Under the pieces are notes generated by a model. It made no database searches, was not told the DNA's origin, and saw nothing but the letters and a program-made list of their open reading frames with translations. The position numbers and the translations under genes are program-made. From Pseudomonas silvicola (GTDB taxonomy: Bacteria; Pseudomonadota; Gammaproteobacteria; Pseudomonadales; Pseudomonadaceae): a stretch of 64,000 nt of DNA. Positions 45,910 to 57,509 of this stretch are shown here, piece after piece. The stretch's first letter is position 1; every line of letters begins with the position of its first letter. Where the stretch lies: contig NZ_CP093280.1 in NCBI RefSeq assembly GCF_026651855.1, forward strand, positions 6,470,501 through 6,534,500, given 5' to 3'.

Positions 45910-48285
45910 TTACGCGGCGCCTTGGCCTTCGGCCAGGAAGAACCAGGTCTCCAGTACCGAGTCCGGGTTCAGCGACACGCTTTCGATGCCCTGCTCCATC
46001 AGCCATTTGGCCAGGTCCGGGTGGTCGGAAGGGCCCTGGCCACAGATGCCGATGTACTTGCCGGCCTTGTTGCACGCGGCGATGGCACTGGCCAACAGCT
46101 TCTTGACCGCCGGGTTACGCTCATCGAACAGGTGGGCGATGATGCCCGAATCGCGGTCCAGGCCCAGGGTCAGCTGGGTCATGTCGTTGGAGCCGATGGA
46201 GAAGCCATCGAAGAATTCCAGGAATTCATCGGCCATCAGCGCGTTGGACGGCAGCTCGCACATCATGATCACGCGCAGGCCGTTGACGCCACGGCCCAGG
46301 CCGTTCTCGGCCAGCAGGTCGACCACCTGGCTCGCCTCGCCCAGGGTGCGCACGAACGGCACCATGATCTCGACGTTGGTCAGGCCCATTTCGTTGCGCA
46401 CGCGCTTGAGCGCACGGCATTCAAGCTCGAAGCACTCGCGGAACGACTCGCTGATGTAGCGCGAGGCACCGCGGAAGCCCAGCATCGGGTTCTCTTCTTC
46501 CGGCTCGTAGAGCTTGCCGCCGATCAGGTTGGCGTACTCGTTGGACTTGAAGTCCGACAGGCGCACGATGACCTTTTTCGGCCAGAACGCCGCGGCCAGG
46601 GTACTGATGCCTTCCACCAGCTTGTCGACGTAGAAGTCCACCGGCGCGCTGTAGCCCGCGATGCGCTTGTCGACGCTGTCCTTGATGTCGGCGGGCAGGC
46701 CGTCGTAGTTCAGCAATGCCTTGGGGTGCACGCCGATCATGCGGTTGATGATGAACTCCAGACGCGCCAGGCCGACACCGGCGTTGGGCAACTGGGCGAA
46801 GTCAAAGGCACGGTCCGGGTTGCCGACGTTCATCATGATCTTGAACGGCAGGTCGGGCATGGCGTCCACCGAGTTCTTCTTGATGTCGAAGCCCAGTTCG
46901 CCCTCGAAGATGTACCCGGTGTCCCCTTCGGCGCATGAAACGGTCACGCCCTGGCCATCGACCAGCAGTTGGGTGGCGTTGCCACAACCGACCACGGCCG
47001 GGATGCCCAGCTCGCGCGCAATGATGGCCGCGTGGCAGGTACGCCCGCCGCGGTTGGTGACGATGGCGCTGGCGCGCTTCATCACCGGCTCCCAGTCAGG
47101 GTCGGTCATGTCGGAGACCAGCACGTCGCCAGGCTGCACCTTGTCCATCTCGGACACGTCCTTGATGATGCGGACCTTGCCGGCGCCGATGCGCTGGCCG
47201 ATGGCGCGGCCTTCAACCAGTACGGTGCCCTTCTCCTTGAGCAGGTAGCGCTCCATGACGTTGGCCTGAGAACGGCTTTTCACGGTTTCCGGGCGGGCCT
47301 GCACGATGTACAGCTTGCCGTCGTCCCCGTCCTTGGCCCATTCGATGTCCATCGGGCACTGGTAGTGCTTCTCGATGATCATCGCCTGCTTGGCCAGTTC
47401 ACTGACCTCAGCGTCGGTGAGGCAGAAGCGCGCACGGTCGGCCTTGTCCACATCGACGGTCTGCACCGACTTGCCGGCCTTGGCCTCGGCGCCGTAGATC
47501 ATCTTGATGGCCTTGCTGCCCAGGTTGCGGCGCAGGATTGCCGGGCGACCGGACTCCAGGGTGTGCTTGTGCACGTAGAACTCGTCGGGGTTGACGGCGC
47601 CCTGCACCACGGTTTCACCCAGGCCATAGGCGCCGGTGATAAACACCACGTCACGGAAGCCCGACTCGGTGTCCAGGGTGAACATCACGCCAGCCGTGCC
47701 GGTTTCCGAACGCACCATGCGCTGCACACCGGCCGACAGGGCCACCAGCTTGTGGTCGAAGCCCTGGTGCACACGGTAGGAAATGGCACGGTCGTTGAAC
47801 AGCGACGCAAATACTTCCTTGGCCGCGCGGATGACGTTTTCAACGCCGCGAATGTTCAGGAAGGTCTCCTGCTGGCCGGCGAACGAGGCATCCGGCAGGT
47901 CTTCGGCGGTGGCCGAGGAGCGCACGGCCACGGCGATGTCCGGGTTGCCCTTGGACAGTTCGGCGAAGTGGGTACGGATCTCGGCGTTCAGTTGCTCGGG
48001 GAATTCGGCGTCCATGATCCATTGGCGGATCTGGGCGCCTGTCCTGGCCAGGGCATTGACGTCATCCACGTCCAGGGCGTCGAGCGCCTTGTGGATCTGG
48101 TCGTTGAGACCACTTTGCTCGAGAAAATCGCGGTAAGCCTGAGCCGTAGTGGCGAAGCCACCGGGTACCGATACGCCGGCACCGGCAAGGTTGCTGATCA
48201 TCTCGCCAAGGGATGCGTTCTTGCCCCCCACATGCTCAACATCGTGTTTGCCGAGCTTATCGAGGGAAACTACGTACTCTACCAA
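45910..48285 (-). CDS. ppsA: Phosphoenolpyruvate synthase
   Basis: A 791-residue enzyme converting pyruvate and ATP to PEP, AMP and phosphate. An ATP-grasp domain (1-350, [11 protein letters not shown]), the swivelling domain with the phosphohistidine in [15 protein letters not shown] (about residue 420), and the PEP-binding barrel (from about 480) with [15 protein letters not shown] and a C-terminal GICGQGPSD. The TTG at 48285 has GGAGAG upstream and gives the family's 791 residues; the longer frame from 48396 is Ser/Arg-rich. Divergent from its regulator. Confidence 0.93.
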
Positions 48286-48461
48286 GGTGATCTCTCCACT
48301 GACGTTGTTGGAATAGCTCAGGGTGCTGCGGCTGCCGTTGAAGGCGCGTGAGCGACCATGGCCTGGACCTGGAAAATAAGTGAGAATGCCAGACACTCAG
48401 GGCCGGCAAATCGGGCCTATCATATCCAAGAATCGTCACCAGCTTAAGGCCCAGGGCGCAA

Positions 48462-49280
48462 ATGAAACGATCTGCTTTCTTTATTTCCGACGGCACCGGT
48501 ATCACCGCCGAGACACTGGGCCAGAGCCTCCTGGCACAATTTGAAAACATTACGTTCAACAAGTTCACGCGCCCCTACATCGACAGCGTAGACAAAGCGC
48601 GCAACATGGTTCGCCAAATAAACGATTCAGCCGAGCGAGATGGCGTACGTCCGATCATTTTCGACACTATCGTGAACCAGGACATTCGTGAAATCCTGGC
48701 CACTTCCAATGGTTTCATGATCGATATATTTTCCACCTTCCTGGCGCCGCTTGAGCAGGAACTGAGTGCCCACTCGTCGTATTCGGTGGGCAAGTCCCAC
48801 TCCATCGGGCACAACTCCAACTACATGGAGCGTATCGAGGCGGTGAATTTCGCCCTGGACAACGACGACGGCGCCCGTACCCACTATTACGACAAGGCCG
48901 ACCTGATTCTGGTCGGTGTTTCCCGTTGCGGCAAGACGCCCACCTGCCTGTACATGGCCATGCAGTTCGGCATCCGCGCGGCCAATTACCCGCTGACCGA
49001 GGACGACATGGAGCGCCTGGAGCTGCCCGCGGCCCTCAAGGCCCACCGGCAAAAGCTGTTCGGCCTGACCATCGACCCCGACCGGCTGACCGCCATCCGC
49101 CATGAGCGCAAGCCCAACAGCCGCTATTCCAGCTTCGCCCAGTGCGAATTCGAGGTGCGCGAAGTGGAGAACCTGTTCCGCCGCGAAAACATCCCCAACA
49201 TCAATTCCACACACTTTTCCGTGGAAGAAATATCGGCCAAGATCCTGGTGGAAAAAGGCGTCGAGCGCCGCTTCAAATAG
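48462..49280 (+). CDS. ppsR: PEP synthase regulatory protein (DUF299 kinase/pyrophosphorylase)
   Basis: A 272-residue protein with [15 protein letters not shown] at the N terminus and a P-loop-like [10 protein letters not shown] (about residue 152). It inactivates PEP synthase by ADP-dependent phosphorylation of a threonine next to the catalytic histidine and reverses it with phosphate. It is divergent from ppsA across 176 bases, the usual arrangement. A weak SD precedes the ATG. Confidence 0.9.
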
Positions 49281-49301
49281 CGCAACCCGGCCCCACGCGG
49301 G

Positions 49302-50786
49302 CTAAGGCACGAACAGGTCGATAAACCGTTGCACCGCCATTTCCTCCAGCCGGTCCTGGTCCCGGCACGCTTCCAGAATCTTCAGGCAACGCTGCCCCAC
49401 GAAACGGGTCGCCAGGTGGGTGCGGAACTTGTCCAGCAACAGCGGCATGCCCTCCCCCCGCCGGCGCCGATGGCCGATGGGGAAATGCACCTCGACCTTC
49501 TCGGTGCTGCTGCCATCGCGGTAGAACACCTGCACGGCATTGGCAATGGACCGCTTGTCCGGCTCCAGGTATTCACGGCTGTACACCGGGTTTTCGACGA
49601 TCTGCATCTTGTCGCGCAACTGGTCGATGATCGGGTGGGCGGCATGAAAGGCGTCTTCGTACTGCTCGGCCACCAAGGTACCGAACGCCAGGGGCACGGC
49701 GACCATGTATTGCAGGCAATGGTCGCGGTCGGCGGCGTTCGCCAGCGGCCCGACCTTGGAAATGATGCGGATCGCCGATTCATGGGTGGTAATGACAATG
49801 CGGTCGATCTCGCTCAGCCGGCCTCGCACCTGCGGGTGCAGGGCCACCGCGGCCTCGCACGCGGTCTGCGCATGGAACTCAGCAGGAAAACTGATCTTGA
49901 ACAGCACGTTTTCCATCACGTAGCTGCCCAGGGGCCGCGCCAGGCGCAGGTGCCGGTCGCCTTCGGGCTTCAGGGCCAGGTCCTTGCTGGTGTGGCTGAA
50001 CAGTACATCGTTGAACCCCCACTGCGCCGCTCCCAGCACCCCGGGAATGCCCATTTCGCCGCGCAGGGCGATGTCTGCCAGGCGCACCCCACGGCTGCTG
50101 GCATCGCCTGCCGCCCAGGACTTGCGCGAGCCGGCATTGGGCGCGTGGCGGTAAGTGCGCAGGGCCTGGCCATCCACGAAGGCGTGGGACAAGGCCGACA
50201 GCAACTGGTCGCGGCTGGCCCCCATCAACCAGGCGCTGACCGCGGTGCTGGCGACCTTGACCAGCAGCACATGATCGAGGCCCACGCGGTTGAAGGCATT
50301 CTCCAGCGCCAGCACACCCTGGATCTCATGCGCCATGATCATGGCTTCCAGCACCCGGCGCATCAGCAGCGGGGGCTCGCCTTCGGCCACACGACGCTGT
50401 GACAGGTGGTCGGCCACCGCCAGGATGGCCCCCAGGTTGTCCGAGGGATGCCCCCACTCCGCCGCCAGCCAGGTGTCGTTGTAATCCAGCCAACGCACGA
50501 TGCAGCCGATGTCCCAGGCCGCCTTGACCGGGTCCAGGCGCCAGGCCGTGCCCGGCACCCGCGCACCGTTTGGCACCACCGTGCCCTCCACCAGCGGCCC
50601 CAGGTGCTTGGTGCATTCGGGAAAGCGCAGGGCCAGCAGGCCGCAGCCCAGGGTATCAATCAGGCAGTAGCGGGCCGTGACCAGCGCGTCGGCAGAGTCG
50701 ACGGCATACCCCAGCACGTAGTCGGCAATGTCCTGCAACAAAGGCTCGTAATCGGGGCGATTGTTGCTGTCGGCGTTGAGACTCAT
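49302..50786 (-). CDS. prpD: 2-methylcitrate dehydratase PrpD-type protein, isolated
   Basis: A 494-residue MmgE/PrpD-family protein with [42 protein letters not shown] (about residue 104), [19 protein letters not shown] and [18 protein letters not shown], all typical of PrpD of the methylcitrate cycle. It converts 2-methylcitrate to 2-methyl-cis-aconitate during propionate use. No prpB, prpC, acnD or prpF is nearby. It may be a functional second copy, or act on another substrate. Confidence 0.85.
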
Positions 50787-50878: not shown

Positions 50879-51054
50879 GGGTCGAGCTGCCACGAAAGCG
50901 CGTCGGCGGCTCACCACAGCCTAGTAAAAACCCCACCCCACGCAACCTTCCGCCTCGGCGCCGGTCAACATTGCGCCCCGCCCCCTGCGGTGGCGTCATA
51001 AAACCATCATGCTAGAATGCGCGGCCCGCCATGTGGGGCCAACCACCGGGAACC

Positions 51055-51591
51055 ATGACCATCAAGCCACTGCATAGCCTTTTCTGCCTGTTTTTCGTGC
51101 CGGGCCTGGCCACGGCCGCGGAAAAGACCACCTACGGCCTCAACGAATACGCCCGCCTGGACGACATCGACCTGCAAGTGGCGGCCAAGCTCGACACCGG
51201 CGCCAAGACCGCCTCACTCAGCGCTCGCGACATCAAGCGCTTCAAGCGCAATGGCGAGCACTGGGTGCGTTTCTACCTGGCCATCGACTCGGCCCACAGC
51301 CACCCCATCGAACGCCCGCTGGCCCGCGTCAGCCATATCAAGCGCCGGGCCGGCGACTATGACCCCGAGCAGGGCGAGCATTACACCGCCCGCCCGGTGA
51401 TCAACCTGGACGTGTGCATGGGCACCGAGCTGCGCGCCATCGAAGTCAACCTGACCGACCGCAGCGCCTTTCAGTACCCGCTGCTGATCGGCAGCGATGC
51501 GCTCCGGCATTTCAACGCCCTGGTCGACCCCAGTCTAAAATACGCAGCCGGCAAGCCTGCCTGCAGCAACGACGCTCATACCGCAGAGTAA
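51055..51591 (+). CDS. Periplasmic retropepsin-like aspartic protease, RimK-associated type
   Basis: A 178-residue protein with a signal peptide (cleavage after LATAA, about residue 22). The fold is PF05618-like with the aspartyl-protease motif KLDTGAKTASLSA (Asp47) and a later GSDALRHFN. Members were annotated as ATP-dependent zinc proteases but look like single-domain retropepsins that would dimerise. It is the first gene of a three-gene operon (next start six bases after its stop) with a transglutaminase-like 7TM protein and an ATP-grasp ligase. GGGA lies four bases before ATG 51055. Confidence 0.83.
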   Translation: MTIKPLHSLFCLFFVPGLATAAEKTTYGLNEYARLDDIDLQVAAKLDTGAKTASLSARDIKRFKRNGEHWVRFYLAIDSAHSHPIERPLARVSHIKRRAGDYDPEQGEHYTARPVINLDVCMGTELRAIEVNLTDRSAFQYPLLIGSDALRHFNALVDPSLKYAAGKPACSNDAHTAE

Positions 51592-51596
51592 CCCGA

Positions 51597-53129
51597 ATGC
51601 GCTCGCTTACCCTCCACCTGAAAGTCCTCATCGCCGTCCTGGTCACCCTGGGCCTGGCGATCACGGCCTATCAGATTTTCGTGCTCGGCATTCCCATGAC
51701 CGAAGACGAGACCGACGACCTGTGGAATATCGACGCCAAGGTCGAGTTCGTCGCCAGCACCAAGGACCCGGTCAAGATCCAGATGTTCGTGCCGCCGCTG
51801 ACGCGCGACTTCGTCAGCCTCAACGAAAGCTTCATTTCCAACAATTACGGAGTGAACGTCAACCGGGTGGACGGCAACCGCAAGGTCACCTGGTCGGCGC
51901 GCCGGGCCAGCGGTAACCAGACCCTGTACTACCGCCTGGTGCTGACCAAGCGCTACAGCAGCGAAAAACCCAAGGTCAAGGGTCCGACCTTCCGTGACAG
52001 CATGGCCATCGAAGGCCCGGAAAAGATTGCCGCCGAGGCGCTGCTGGCACCCATTCGCCAGCATTCGGCCGACGTCGAGACCTTCGTCAGCGAAACCATC
52101 AAGCGGGTCAACAACCTCAGCGACGACAACGTCAAGCTGCTGCTGGCCGGTGACCCTTCCACCCCGCACAAAGCGGCCATCGTCGACCTGCTGCTGTCCA
52201 TCGCCCATGTGCCCCTTGAGAAAGTGCACACCATTCGCCTGGTGGCGGACCAGCCCCAGACCCCGGAGCTGTGGCTGCGCAGCTTCAACGGCAGCCAGTG
52301 GCTGTACTTCAACCCCGACACGGGCGAGCAGGGCCTGCCCAGCGACCGCCTGCTGTGGTGGACCGGCGATGAAAACCTGATCAGCGTGGAGGGTGGCAAA
52401 AAGGCCCTGGTGACGTTCACGCTGAACAACAGCGAGATGAACGCCATTCGCCTGGCCAAGCTGACGGACGAGAACACCGACGCCGACTTCCTCGAATATT
52501 CGCTGTACAGCCTGCCACTGCAGACCCAGCAGACCTTCATGATCATGGTGATGATCCCCATCGGCGTGCTGGTGATCCTGATCCTGCGCAACCTGATCGG
52601 CCTGCAGACCCTGGGCACCTTTACCCCGGTATTGATCGCCCTGGCCTTCCGCGAGACCCAGCTGGGCTTTGGCATCGCCCTGTTCACGGTGATCACGGCG
52701 CTGGGCCTGACCCTGCGCTCCTACCTCGAGCACCTGAAACTGCAGATGCTGCCGCGCCTGTCGGTGGTACTGACGTTCGTGGTGGTGCTGATCGCCGCCA
52801 TCAGCCTGTTCAGCCACAAACTGGGGCTTGAACGCGGCCTGTCGGTGGCGCTGTTCCCCATGGTGATCCTGACCATGACCATCGAGCGCCTGTCCATCAC
52901 CTGGGAAGAGCGCGGCGCCAGCCATGCCATGAAAGTGGCCATCGGCACCCTGTTCGCCGCGTCCCTGGCGCACCTGCTGATGACCGTGCCGGACCTGGTG
53001 TACTTCGTCTTCACCTTCCCGGCCATTCTGCTGATCATGGTGGGGTTCATGCTGGCCATGGGGCGCTACCGCGGCTACCGCCTGACCGAATTGCTGCGCT
53101 TTCGCGCATTCCTCAAGGCGGACAGCTGA
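51597..53129 (+). CDS. Inactive transglutaminase-like, 7TM protein (UUP1 type)
   Basis: A 510-residue protein. One N-terminal TM (about 8-30), a large periplasmic region (about 31-300) with a transglutaminase-like fold but no clear Cys-His-Asp triad, then about seven TM helices (from about 310) ending in a basic tail. It has no recognised catalytic residues, so it probably binds or presents a peptide or lipid to its operon partners. ATG 51597 follows the protease stop by five bases, and the ligase start follows with zero spacing. Confidence 0.82.
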   Translation: MRSLTLHLKVLIAVLVTLGLAITAYQIFVLGIPMTEDETDDLWNIDAKVEFVASTKDPVKIQMFVPPLTRDFVSLNESFISNNYGVNVNRVDGNRKVTWSARRASGNQTLYYRLVLTKRYSSEKPKVKGPTFRDSMAIEGPEKIAAEALLAPIRQHSADVETFVSETIKRVNNLSDDNVKLLLAGDPSTPHKAAIVDLLLSIAHVPLEKVHTIRLVADQPQTPELWLRSFNGSQWLYFNPDTGEQGLPSDRLLWWTGDENLISVEGGKKALVTFTLNNSEMNAIRLAKLTDENTDADFLEYSLYSLPLQTQQTFMIMVMIPIGVLVILILRNLIGLQTLGTFTPVLIALAFRETQLGFGIALFTVITALGLTLRSYLEHLKLQMLPRLSVVLTFVVVLIAAISLFSHKLGLERGLSVALFPMVILTMTIERLSITWEERGASHAMKVAIGTLFAASLAHLLMTVPDLVYFVFTFPAILLIMVGFMLAMGRYRGYRLTELLRFRAFLKADS

Positions 53130-54110
53130 ATGTTCGGCCTGGTCAAGACCTGGAAGGCCCTGCAGGCGCGGGGCATCATGGGCATCAACCGGCGCAACGC
53201 CGACTACGTGCTCAAGTACAACAAGCGCAGCCTGTACCCCATCGTCGATGACAAGATCATCACCAAGGAGCGGGCCATCGCCGCTGGCATCCATGTGCCG
53301 GAAATGTACGGGGTGATTTCCACCGAGAAAGAAATCGCCGGGCTCAAAGGCATCATCGGCGGGCGCAGCGACTTCGTCATCAAGCCGGCCCAGGGCGCGG
53401 GCGGTGACGGCATCCTGGTGGTGGCCGACCGTTTCGAGGACCGCTACCGCACGGTGTCGGGGCGCCTGATCAGCCACGACGAGATCGAGCATCAGATTTC
53501 CAGCATCCTCACCGGCCTGTATTCCCTGGGTGGCCACCGTGACCGCGCCCTGATCGAGTACCGCGTCACCCCGGACCAGATCTTTCGCAGCATCAGCTAT
53601 GAAGGCGTGCCGGATATCCGCATCATCGTATTGATGGGCTACCCGGTGATGGCCATGCTGCGCCTGCCCACCCGCCAGTCCAACGGCAAGGCCAACCTGC
53701 ACCAGGGGGCCATTGGCGTGGGCGTGGACCTGGCCACCGGCGTGACCTTGCGCGGCACCTGGCTGAACACCATCATCAGCAAGCACCCCGACACCACCAA
53801 CGCGGTGGACGGCGTGCAACTGCCCAACTGGGACGGCTTCATGAAGCTGGCCGCCGGTTGCTTCGAGCTGTGCGGCCTGGGCTACATCGGGGTGGACATG
53901 GTGCTGGACCAGGAAAAGGGCCCGCTGATCCTGGAACTCAACGCCCGCCCGGGGCTGAACATCCAGATCGCCAATGATTGCGGCCTGACGCACCGTACCC
54001 AGGCCGTGGAAGCACGGCTGGCGGAGCTGGCCAGCGAAAGCCGGGTTGAAACCCCCGAAGAGCGTGTGCGCTTTACCCAAGGATTGTTCGGGCATGTGCC
54101 CACGGCATAA
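53130..54110 (+). CDS. ATP-grasp alpha-L-glutamate ligase-like protein
   Basis: A 326-residue cytoplasmic ATP-grasp enzyme (PF14397-like): FVIKPAQGAGGDGILVVADR is the phosphate-binding loop, LILELNARPGLNIQIAN the metal-binding strand. Relatives of RimK add glutamates or other amino acids to a peptide or protein. The start is immediately after the preceding stop (TGAATG), so translation is coupled. Together with the protease and transglutaminase-like protein it suggests a peptide-ligation and trimming system of unknown target. Confidence 0.85.
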   Translation: MFGLVKTWKALQARGIMGINRRNADYVLKYNKRSLYPIVDDKIITKERAIAAGIHVPEMYGVISTEKEIAGLKGIIGGRSDFVIKPAQGAGGDGILVVADRFEDRYRTVSGRLISHDEIEHQISSILTGLYSLGGHRDRALIEYRVTPDQIFRSISYEGVPDIRIIVLMGYPVMAMLRLPTRQSNGKANLHQGAIGVGVDLATGVTLRGTWLNTIISKHPDTTNAVDGVQLPNWDGFMKLAAGCFELCGLGYIGVDMVLDQEKGPLILELNARPGLNIQIANDCGLTHRTQAVEARLAELASESRVETPEERVRFTQGLFGHVPTA

Positions 54111-54153: not shown

Positions 54154-54230
54154 GGGTAGCTGCCGCTACACAGTTTGTGACGACAGGACTACAATCGCCC
54201 TCCTCGCCTGCTTGGTGTCGTATCAGCCAC

Positions 54231-55574
54231 ATGTCCATCTGCTTTGTACACCCCCTGCCCTACCACCCCGACCCCGCCGCCTGGTTCGCCACCCTTCGCC
54301 ACGCCCCGGGGGCGATTCTGCTCGACAGCGCCAAACCTGCCGCCGAGCGCGGGCGCTTCGATATTCTCAGCGCCTGGCCCCAGGCGGTGTTGCGCGCCGA
54401 ACCCGAAGAGACCGGCGAAGCCTTCCTGCGACGCTTGCGCGCCGCCTTGGCTACCCTGGGAGAAGCACAGCTGCCCGACGGCCTGGAACTGCCCTTCGCC
54501 GGCGGCCTGCTCGGCTACCTGAGCTACGACTTCGGCCGCCGCCTGGAGCACTTGCCCAGTACTGCCACGGACGACCTGCATCTGCCCGACGCGCACCTGG
54601 GCCTGTATGCCTGGGCGCTGATCAGCGACCACCAGTGCAAGACCAGCCAACTGGTCCTGCACCCCAGCGTGACAGCCGACGAACAGCAACGCCTGATCGA
54701 CCGGTTCAGCCAACCGGGCACTGCCACCCCCGGCGCATTCAGACTCGACGCCCCCATGGCCCCGGACCTGACCCCCGAGCAATACCGCCAGGCGTTCGAA
54801 CGCATCCAGGCCTACATCAGCGCGGGCGACTGCTACCAGGTCAATCAGACACAGCGTTTCCGCGCACCTTGCCACGGCGACCCCTGGGCCGCCTACCAGG
54901 CCTTGCGCCAGGCCTGCCCGACGCCGTTCTCCGGCTACCTGACGCTGGAAGACGGCAGCGCCATTCTCAGCCTGTCGCCGGAACGCTTCATTCAGGTGCA
55001 TGACGGGCACGTGGAAACCCGCCCCATCAAGGGCACCCGCCTGCGCGACAGCGACGCCGAACGTGATGCCGCCAACGGCCGCGAACTGTTGGCCAGCCTC
55101 AAGGACCGCGCTGAAAACCTGATGATCGTCGACCTGCTGCGCAATGACCTGGGACGCACCTGCCGCATCGGCTCGGTGCGCGTGCCCGAGCTGTTCGCTC
55201 TGGAAAGCTACCCCAACGTCCACCATATGGTCAGCGCCGTGGTCGGCGAACTGGCCGAGGGCAAGGACTGCCTGGACCTGATTGCCGGCAGCTTCCCCGG
55301 CGGCTCCATCACCGGCGCACCGAAGATCCGCTCGATGGAGATCATCGACGAACTGGAGCCGACCCGCCGCGCCTTGTATTGCGGTTCGCTGCTGTACCTG
55401 GACGTGCGCGGGCACATGGACAGCTCCATCGCCATCCGCAGCCTGCTGGTCAAGGATGGACAAGTGAGTTGCTGGGGTGGCGGCGCGATCGTCGCCGATT
55501 CGCGCTGGGAAGATGAATATGCCGAATCGGTGTTCAAGGTTCAGGTGTTGATGGATACCCTGAAGACGCTGTAA
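54231..55574 (+). CDS. pabB: Aminodeoxychorismate synthase component I
   Basis: A 447-residue chorismate-binding enzyme. The PIKGTR motif (Lys) marks PabB instead of anthranilate synthase (PIAGT). Others: GYLSYDFGR, DLLRNDLGR and GSITGAPKIRSMEIIDELEP. With a glutaminase partner it converts chorismate to 4-amino-4-deoxychorismate for folate. The ATG at 54231 gives the typical N terminus. Confidence 0.92.
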   Translation: MSICFVHPLPYHPDPAAWFATLRHAPGAILLDSAKPAAERGRFDILSAWPQAVLRAEPEETGEAFLRRLRAALATLGEAQLPDGLELPFAGGLLGYLSYDFGRRLEHLPSTATDDLHLPDAHLGLYAWALISDHQCKTSQLVLHPSVTADEQQRLIDRFSQPGTATPGAFRLDAPMAPDLTPEQYRQAFERIQAYISAGDCYQVNQTQRFRAPCHGDPWAAYQALRQACPTPFSGYLTLEDGSAILSLSPERFIQVHDGHVETRPIKGTRLRDSDAERDAANGRELLASLKDRAENLMIVDLLRNDLGRTCRIGSVRVPELFALESYPNVHHMVSAVVGELAEGKDCLDLIAGSFPGGSITGAPKIRSMEIIDELEPTRRALYCGSLLYLDVRGHMDSSIAIRSLLVKDGQVSCWGGGAIVADSRWEDEYAESVFKVQVLMDTLKTL

Positions 55575-55580
55575 GCCGAA

Positions 55581-55641
55581 AGCGGCAAGCTGGAAACGCG
55601 GAGGCAGTCTTCCGGCAGCTCAAAGCTTGAAGCTTGCCGCT
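55581..55641. repeat. Long-spaced inverted repeat between pabB and cysH
   Basis: AGCGGCAAGCT at 55581-55591 and AGCTTGCCGCT at 55631-55641, an 11-base perfect inverse pair with 39 bases between. It looks like a different REP-type element; no T-run. Confidence 0.5.
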
Positions 55642-55706
55642 GCCCATTTTGTTACCATCGGCCACAAATGAGCGCCCAAGCGCCGAATGAACTAGGAAGC
55701 CGCCTG

Positions 55707-56441
55707 ATGAGCCTGAACCTCGACGTCGCCGAACTCGCCGCGACTTATGCCAACAAGTCCGCCCAGGACATCCTGAAGCTTGCCTTCGAGCACTTCGGTG
55801 ACGACCTGTGGATCTCCTTCAGCGGTGCCGAAGACGTGGTGCTGGTGGACATGGCCTGGAAGCTGAACAAGAACGTCAAGGTGTTCAGCCTCGACACCGG
55901 GCGCCTGCACCCGGAAACCTACCGGTTCATCGACCAGGTGCGCGACCATTACAAGATCGCCATCGAACTGGTGTCGCCCGACCACACCAGGCTGGAGCCG
56001 TTCGTCAAGGAAAAGGGCCTGTTCAGTTTCTACAAGGACGGTCATGGCGAATGTTGCGGCATCCGCAAGATCGAACCCCTGCGTCGCAAACTCTCTACCG
56101 TCAGCGCCTGGGCCACCGGCCAGCGCCGCGACCAGAGCCCGGGGACCCGCAGCCAGGTGTCGGTGATGGAAGTCGACGGCGCGTTCTCCACCCCGGAGCG
56201 CACGTTGTACAAGTTCAACCCCTTGGCACAGATGAGCAGCGAGGAAATCTGGGGCTATATCCGCATGCTCGAGCTGCCTTACAACAGCTTGCACGAACGC
56301 GGTTTCATCAGCATCGGCTGCGAGCCCTGCACTCGCCCTGTGCTGCCGAACCAGCACGAGCGCGAAGGCCGCTGGTGGTGGGAGGAAGCCACCCAGAAGG
56401 AATGCGGGCTGCATGCCGGCAACCTGATCCAGAAAGCCTGA
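55707..56441 (+). CDS. cysH: Adenylylsulfate (APS) reductase, [4Fe-4S] type
   Basis: A 244-residue enzyme reducing adenylylsulfate to sulfite. The P-loop-like [13 protein letters not shown] binds nucleotide. The paired cysteines CCGIRK and CEPCTRP (four Fe-S ligands) identify the APS-reductase type, and the active Cys lies in ECGLH near the C terminus. AGGAAG eight bases before ATG 55707 decides against the ATG at 55668. cysB lies beyond the terminator in opposite orientation. Confidence 0.92.
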
Positions 56442-56445
56442 ACAG

Positions 56446-56474
56446 AAAAACCGGCCAGATTGGCCGGTTTTTTT
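56446..56474. terminator. Rho-independent terminator between cysH and cysB
   Basis: A perfect AAAAACCGGCCA-GAT-TGGCCGGTTTTT structure with seven Ts after it. Symmetric A and T runs make it bidirectional for the convergent cysH and cysB. Confidence 0.87.
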
Positions 56475-56490
56475 ATGAGTTCCCGCACGT

Positions 56491-56504
56491 GTAGCCGTGG
56501 CTGC
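56491..56504. repeat. GTAGCCGTGGCTGC motif
   Basis: A one-base variant of the complement of 50865-50878, in the 50-base gap before cysB. Two copies, one per strand, suggest a small REP-like family. Confidence 0.4.
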
Positions 56505-56525
56505 AAGGCAGCGGGCCCCGACCGT

Positions 56526-57509
<984 letters not shown>

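Follow-up and report, generated by a model that had tools for sequence, protein, structure and literature searches.

What is made, and what is trimmed, by the products of three closely packed Pseudomonas genes that combine an ATP-grasp ligase, a membrane protein and a secreted protease? The genes lie in a 64,000-nucleotide (nt) stretch of Pseudomonas silvicola DNA (assembly GCF_026651855.1, contig NZ_CP093280.1, positions 6,470,501 to 6,534,500), here called the window, whose numbering we use throughout. The locus is the already published rlo operon (rloABC) of Pseudomonas, and the operon itself is therefore known; what is worth a second look is the comparative pattern of the rloB-rloC core and its hydrolase partners. 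The hydrolase partner varies between lineages, and rloB-rloC is constant at every rloB locus examined. An original prediction, made from the sequence, held the locus to be the window's best candidate for an undescribed system, with no characterised pathway and no known target. Lormand et al. (mBio 2025, PMC12239564) named rloABC in June 2025, described mutant phenotypes, reported crystal structures of RloA and identified poly-glutamate as its substrate in vitro, so the claims of an undescribed system and of no characterised pathway were wrong. The half concerning the target stands, since that article names neither the physiological substrate nor the product of RloC.

The rlo operon of P. silvicola

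The operon and its features are as follows.

51055..51591, + strand: rloA (RloA1), 178 amino acids (aa), secreted retropepsin-like aspartic peptidase
51055..51120, + strand: RloA signal peptide, residues 1-22, end inferred (hydrophobic residues 8-22; alignment to PDB 9g58 starts at residue 21)
51193..51201, + strand: codons of the RloA catalytic Asp47-Thr-Gly, within KLDTGAK
51597..53129, + strand: rloB, 510 aa inner-membrane protein with an N-terminal transmembrane (TM) helix, a periplasmic inactive transglutaminase-like (TG) domain and a C-terminal seven-transmembrane (7TM) domain
51711..52442, + strand: periplasmic TG-like part of RloB, residues 39-282
52161-52163, 52266-52268 and 52311-52313, + strand: codons of RloB T189, E224 and N239, in the columns of Cys/His/Asp in Cys-type homologues
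52518..53123, + strand: RloB 7TM domain, residues 308-509, placed by PF14402 and the helices of the AlphaFold2 model
53130..54110, + strand: rloC, 326 aa, ATP-grasp, RimK-related glutamate ligase-like enzyme

The tight packing originally described is borne out, with all three genes on the + strand and gaps of 5 nt (rloA/rloB) and 0 nt (rloB/rloC). Two starts have longer versions in the open-reading-frame list, an upstream ATG at 51031 for rloA and a frame from 51414 for rloB; for rloA, the start at 51055 is the one whose residues 1-178 fit the RloA1 model of NCBIfam.

The family assignments in the prediction were sound, and the Pfam and NCBIfam scores behind them all exceed the curated cut-offs. 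RloA matches NF052262 (RloA1) at 337.1 bits (cut-off 280) and PF05618 at 153.6 bits (cut-off 27), and aligns at 293 bits to PDB 9g58, probably the crystal structure of RloA from P. fluorescens reported in PMC12239564. The KLDTGAK motif and its Asp47 are both present in the translation as predicted. RloA residues K45, R91, R113 and R136 correspond, with numbering off by one, to the poly-Glu contacts K46, R92, R114 and R137 of the P. aeruginosa protein, and the asymmetric contacts K95, K97 and K109 become H94, K96 and E108, at positions reported as not always conserved (PMC12239564). The genome encodes three PF05618 proteins: RloA1, RloA2 (293 bits, cut-off 250), whose gene precedes a creB-like one, and RimB (292 bits, cut-off 200), whose gene precedes a rimK-like one; the creB and rimK names are read from translations.

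RloB matches NF052267 at 1067.2 bits (cut-off 900), PF14400 at 165 bits and PF14402 at 325.9 bits (cut-off 25 each), and its AlphaFold2 model has a predicted local distance difference test score of 88.3. Its TG domain was predicted to be without a catalytic triad, and indeed Thr189, Glu224 and Asn239 replace the Cys, His and Asp of distant homologues, so that the Cys-His-Asp triad of an active transglutaminase or cysteine peptidase is absent. RloC matches TIGR02291 (alpha-L-glutamate ligase-like) at 565.9 bits (cut-off 314.2) and PF14397 at 324.3 bits (cut-off 31.4), with RimK (PF08443) second at 34.9 bits (cut-off 21). Residues K42, K85, D256, E269 and N271, which we take to be ATP/Mg ligands, are invariant among 13 diverse members. 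Of 12 matches between the RloC profile and the PDB, 11 are by name RimK/alpha-L-glutamate ligases, cyanophycin synthases or tubulin polyglutamylases, with E values from 8e-10 to 0.009 over short stretches only.

A constant core with changing partners

The co-occurrence survey covered 299 genomes of Pseudomonadota, the phylum of the window, and 74 of these come from a single family, the Mariprofundaceae. PF14402 is present in 48 of the 299, a figure that is no measure of prevalence because the sample is so uneven. The same 48 genomes carry TIGR02291 at 250 bits or more (41 above the cut-off). In all 48, rloC directly adjoins rloB (40 loci by script, 8 by coordinates), and RloA adjoins rloB in 40 (32 of the 40 scripted loci and 8 of 8 by coordinates), so the genes are not separable in most genomes. 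A second set comprised 79 named loci drawn from the best 80 of 580 confirmed candidates, two of them contigs already in the first set, and here rloC follows rloB in 79 of 79. An N-terminal hydrophobic segment is found by a crude hydropathy test in 83 of 85 adjacent RloA proteins, 19 of them with a lipobox. No fourth gene is conserved across lineages beside RloA-type operons among the 60 largest families listed. One family has a glutathione-synthetase-like ATP-grasp gene upstream of rloA (L060:7557-8606, L061:1535-2587, L062:8890-9954 and L063:36-1100, the last matching PF02955).

The RloB alignment held 120 proteins (119 fetched plus that of the window), 118 of them with a TG-like domain. Cys, His and Asp or Cys are kept in 19 (17 without duplicates), here called Cys-type, and the Cys is lost in the other 99; among these, His is found within one column in 23, Asp in 32 and both in 5, with the caveat that the His column may move by one. 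We compared the state of the triad with the presence of an adjacent RloA after dropping two duplicates (L076 = L068, L079 = L069) and the TG-less L071 and L072, and after setting aside 4 non-Cys and 3 Cys loci with too little upstream room to be testable. RloA is adjacent to none of 14 testable Cys-type rloB genes and to 86 of 95 Cys-less ones, including that of the window (Fisher p 5e-12, ancestry uncorrected). The Cys-type loci come from Zetaproteobacteria (Mariprofundaceae and Ghiorsea) and Anaeromyxobacter oryzisoli, and from metagenome-assembled genomes (MAGs) labelled Proteobacteria, Gammaproteobacteria, Deltaproteobacteria, Archangium, Chlorobiota, Spirochaetaceae, Polarisedimenticola and Zixibacteriota. 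L066-L070 are placed in the Mariprofundaceae because two of them lie on the same contigs as L076 and L079. A search for PF05618 in the genomes of 12 Cys-type loci found no such protein in 9 and, in two, only RimB-like copies, which by eye lack a signal segment. The UBA6915 MAG carries a RimB-like copy together with both a Cys-type (L074) and an RloA-type (L095) rlo locus, reflecting either coexisting systems or a chimeric MAG.

Nine non-Cys loci with upstream room lack an adjacent RloA. At two of these (L089 and L093), an AstE/AspA-family gene (PF24827, 1e-40) ends 25 and 12 nt before rloB. For L145 and L144, the genome encodes an unlinked, secreted-looking PF05618 protein; for L053 (G193), there are two PF05618 matches at other sites, for L138 and L141 only a RimB-like protein, and for L088 and L140 no PF05618 protein was found. 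Most loci have an amide-bond hydrolase next to RloB or as part of it, though not always one of the same kind.

The genes downstream of rloC also differ between types. The next gene encodes a tetratricopeptide repeat (TPR) protein at 16 of 18 testable Cys-type loci, 0 of 79 RloA-type loci and 0 of 14 others, and a barrel-like gene follows it at 9 of 14, 0 of 70 and 0 of 10, respectively; these counts include two duplicate records (14 of 16 and 8 of 13 without them), and 6 of the counted loci served as seeds for the TPR profile and 5 for the barrel profile, so that these match by construction. An N-terminal TM segment is present in 8 of 8 TPR proteins checked. "Barrel-like" is our own reading of these proteins: two of the nine matches are weak (22 and 26 bits), that of L074 matches the MtrB/PioB porin family at 3.7e-9, and those of L070 and L081 match no Pfam family. 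At L081, an M14 peptidase gene directly precedes the Cys-type rloB. Two loci that we read as alphaproteobacterial (L071 and L072) encode an RloB without a TG domain, and a barrel-like gene abuts rloB; the two barrel-like proteins are 54% identical to each other, and that of L072 matches OMP_b-brl at only E 0.018. In L071, the barrel-like gene and the TG-less rloB-rloC are closely preceded by rimB-rimK-like genes (L071:4174-5567).

A proposed glutamate-rich chain and its rivals

P. aeruginosa has three redundant secreted retropepsins, the RloA paralogues, and the triple mutant does not grow without salt; low osmolarity kills it unless rloB or rloC is lost as well (PMC12239564). RloA cleaves chains of 8 or 10 Glu in vitro and not those of 6 or fewer, and the same study reports no genome-encoded substrate (PMC12239564). 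Taken together, the ligase relatives of RloC, the cutting of poly-Glu, the epistasis and the changing amide-bond hydrolase by RloB make a glutamate-rich chain the simplest reading. We hypothesize, with a probability of about 0.55, that RloC makes such a chain, that RloB passes or presents it across the inner membrane, that RloA trims it and that excess chains cause death at low osmolarity. Cytoplasmic RloC would use ATP to make or extend the chain, free or on an acceptor, the 7TM domain of RloB would carry or present it across the inner membrane, and the catalytically dead TG-like domain would hold it in the periplasm while secreted RloA, with paralogues encoded elsewhere, shortens it. In cells that lack the proteases, long anionic chains may build up in the envelope, where they would either raise the osmotic pressure of the periplasm by drawing in counter-ions or interfere with growth of the wall; at low osmolarity such cells would die, and removing rloB or rloC would save them. 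The RloC product, transport by RloB and the osmotic cause of death are the parts that we infer. The outline of ligase, membrane presenter and trimming protease was already part of the prediction, and it agrees with the sequence and with the published genetics (PMC12239564).

More broadly, the pattern across lineages is suggestive of a conserved poly-glutamate-type synthesis and export core (rloB-rloC) with an exchangeable periplasmic hydrolase. We put forward only tentatively, and with distinctly less assurance, that rloB-rloC may be the invariant core of widespread, unrecognised envelope machines for poly-amino-acid (poly-glutamate) synthesis and export, in which the hydrolase is either the domain of RloB itself (in the Cys-type, accompanied by TPR and barrel-like proteins as in Zetaproteobacteria), or secreted RloA where RloB has lost its triad, or an AstE/AspA-family enzyme, and in which the Cys-type and TG-less, barrel-bearing forms may export the polymer through the outer membrane. 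Shared ancestry weighs against drawing more from the pattern: on the RloB 7TM tree a single branch (support 99) separates the Cys-type loci from the rest, and the link between triad and RloA is for this reason short of proof. The RloC tree requires two changes of Cys type.

Rated next is a reading in which RloC poly-glutamylates a single protein, which may be RloB or some other protein of the periplasm or outer membrane that RloB handles, and RloA removes the tag, with no free polymer. RloC and RimK are related, RimK and RimB act on RpsF in the precedent of RimBK (PMC11957791), and Lormand et al. propose a poly-glutamylated protein as well as free poly-Glu among the possibilities (PMC12239564). 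A cytoplasmic ligase would, however, have to modify its target before or during export, and no acceptor gene is evident within about 5-7 kb around 40 rlo loci among the 60 largest families listed, where no family other than rlo genes and antisense frames recurs in more than 9 loci (cmoA/cmoB-like families, by our reading). We regard a tagged protein as rather unlikely. TG-like folds occur in wall enzymes, and the Cys-type TG domain and the AspA and M14 partners belong to amide-hydrolase families, which would fit a role of RloB-RloC in adding amino acids to peptidoglycan or another envelope precursor, with the TG-like domain binding peptide stems and RloA editing them. Pseudomonas peptidoglycan is not known to contain runs of at least 8 Glu, which counts against such decoration of the wall. 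The beta-lactam sensitivity and cell-shape defects of rlo mutants speak for it, but RloA requires runs of at least 8 Glu in vitro (PMC12239564), and on balance we consider it improbable. The epistasis of rloB and rloC losses over rloA losses (PMC12239564) could also be explained if RloB were a signalling or regulatory membrane protein inactivated by RloA proteolysis, with RloC merely supporting RloB. Such a role is very improbable given that RloA R114A and R137A, altered at poly-Glu contacts, fail to complement (PMC12239564), and that rloC is kept in the Cys-type, AspA-type and TG-less operon variants.

Relation to known systems

The closest relative is the rloABC operon of P. aeruginosa (PA14_41690-41710-41730 in PA14, PMC12239564; PA1768-PA1767-PA1766 in PAO1, PMC7314104), which the window's locus resembles in gene order, domain content, fit to the RloA1 and RloB models, poly-Glu contacts and signal peptide. 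P. aeruginosa has three RloA proteins, whereas the window's genome has two secreted ones plus RimB, with no third detected by PF05618. Insertions in PA1766, PA1767 and PA1768 are among the suppressors of a rugose phenotype (PMC7314104), and PA1767 is among the genes mutated on ceftazidime exposure (PMC10187892); in Shewanella, disruption of a gene annotated as an inactive transglutaminase fused to 7TM gave 1.9-fold more vesicles (PMC12096838). The rimBK pair likewise joins a protease of the same family to an ATP-grasp glutamate ligase, but it is cytoplasmic and without a membrane protein, and the window's RloA has an N-terminal hydrophobic segment and scores 79.9 bits on the RimB model NF052261, below the cut-off of 200. 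The Anbu operon shares protease-like, ATP-grasp and transglutaminase-like genes with rlo, but its protease has the Ntn-hydrolase fold, it has no retropepsin and it includes an additional alpha-E gene (PMC6376114). None of the three rlo proteins matches the Anbu Ntn-hydrolase family of Pfam up to E 0.1.

The poly-gamma-glutamate synthases PgsBCA/CapBCA combine a ligase, a membrane protein and a hydrolase, and share poly-glutamate with rlo as the proposed end product. The PgsB ligase is of the Mur-ligase type, whereas RloC is an ATP-grasp enzyme (PF14397). Kinship between the RloB 7TM domain and CapC/PgsC, an idea taken from a remembered motif, remains a lead only: PF14102 (CapC) is not among the 25 families listed, of 29 in all, for 50 RloB proteins and has no match in L071 and L072, and with a CapC profile built on only 4 proteins hhalign gave a probability of 8% (P 0.0043) and, in another comparison, 2% against 0.5% for the reversed profile. 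A search of a PDB copy for a CapC structure found none. In the Mariprofundaceae, rloB and CapC occur in 5 and 5 of 74 genomes without overlap, which is uninformative since chance alone predicts only 0.3 shared genomes. One further genome (G214) gave a weak CapC match that reads as heme A synthase and was dropped. Five of the 74 Mariprofundaceae genomes have two CapC matches in one long frame, of about 1080 aa in L164:8486-11725, L165:4686-7937, L166:748-3999 and L167:7485-10736; a gene of about 820 aa follows, and in three then one of about 315 aa, both without a Pfam match in L164. These loci are possibly a poly-glutamate system of unusual build.

Around the operon, the flanks (45910-50786 and 54177-57500) read from translations as ppsA, a ppsA regulator, an MmgE/PrpD-like gene, pabB, cysH and a LysR regulator. 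An antisense open frame of 839 aa (51576-54095, - strand) spans rloB and rloC and is probably a by-product of high G+C, and a promoter and terminator scan gave counts no higher than the shuffle level. The genome is listed at 8.65 Mb (3 contigs, contamination 8%), and six listed genomes of the same genus are smaller (4.4-6.7 Mb).

The main text of PMC12239564 makes no mention of transport, TPR or "Mariprofund-", and we saw no earlier description of a Cys-type, TPR or barrel operon in the open-licence literature, which is not a claim of absence from print. The rlo operon is needed for a healthy cell envelope (PMC12239564), and the comparative pattern ties its rloB-rloC core to possible outer-membrane export genes. 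The annotation "inactive transglutaminase" conceals a branch whose triad is complete. Should Cys-type RloB cut the poly-Glu substrates of RloA, then the TG-like domain in "inactive" RloB would be a substrate-binding relic, and the substrate would pass through RloB.

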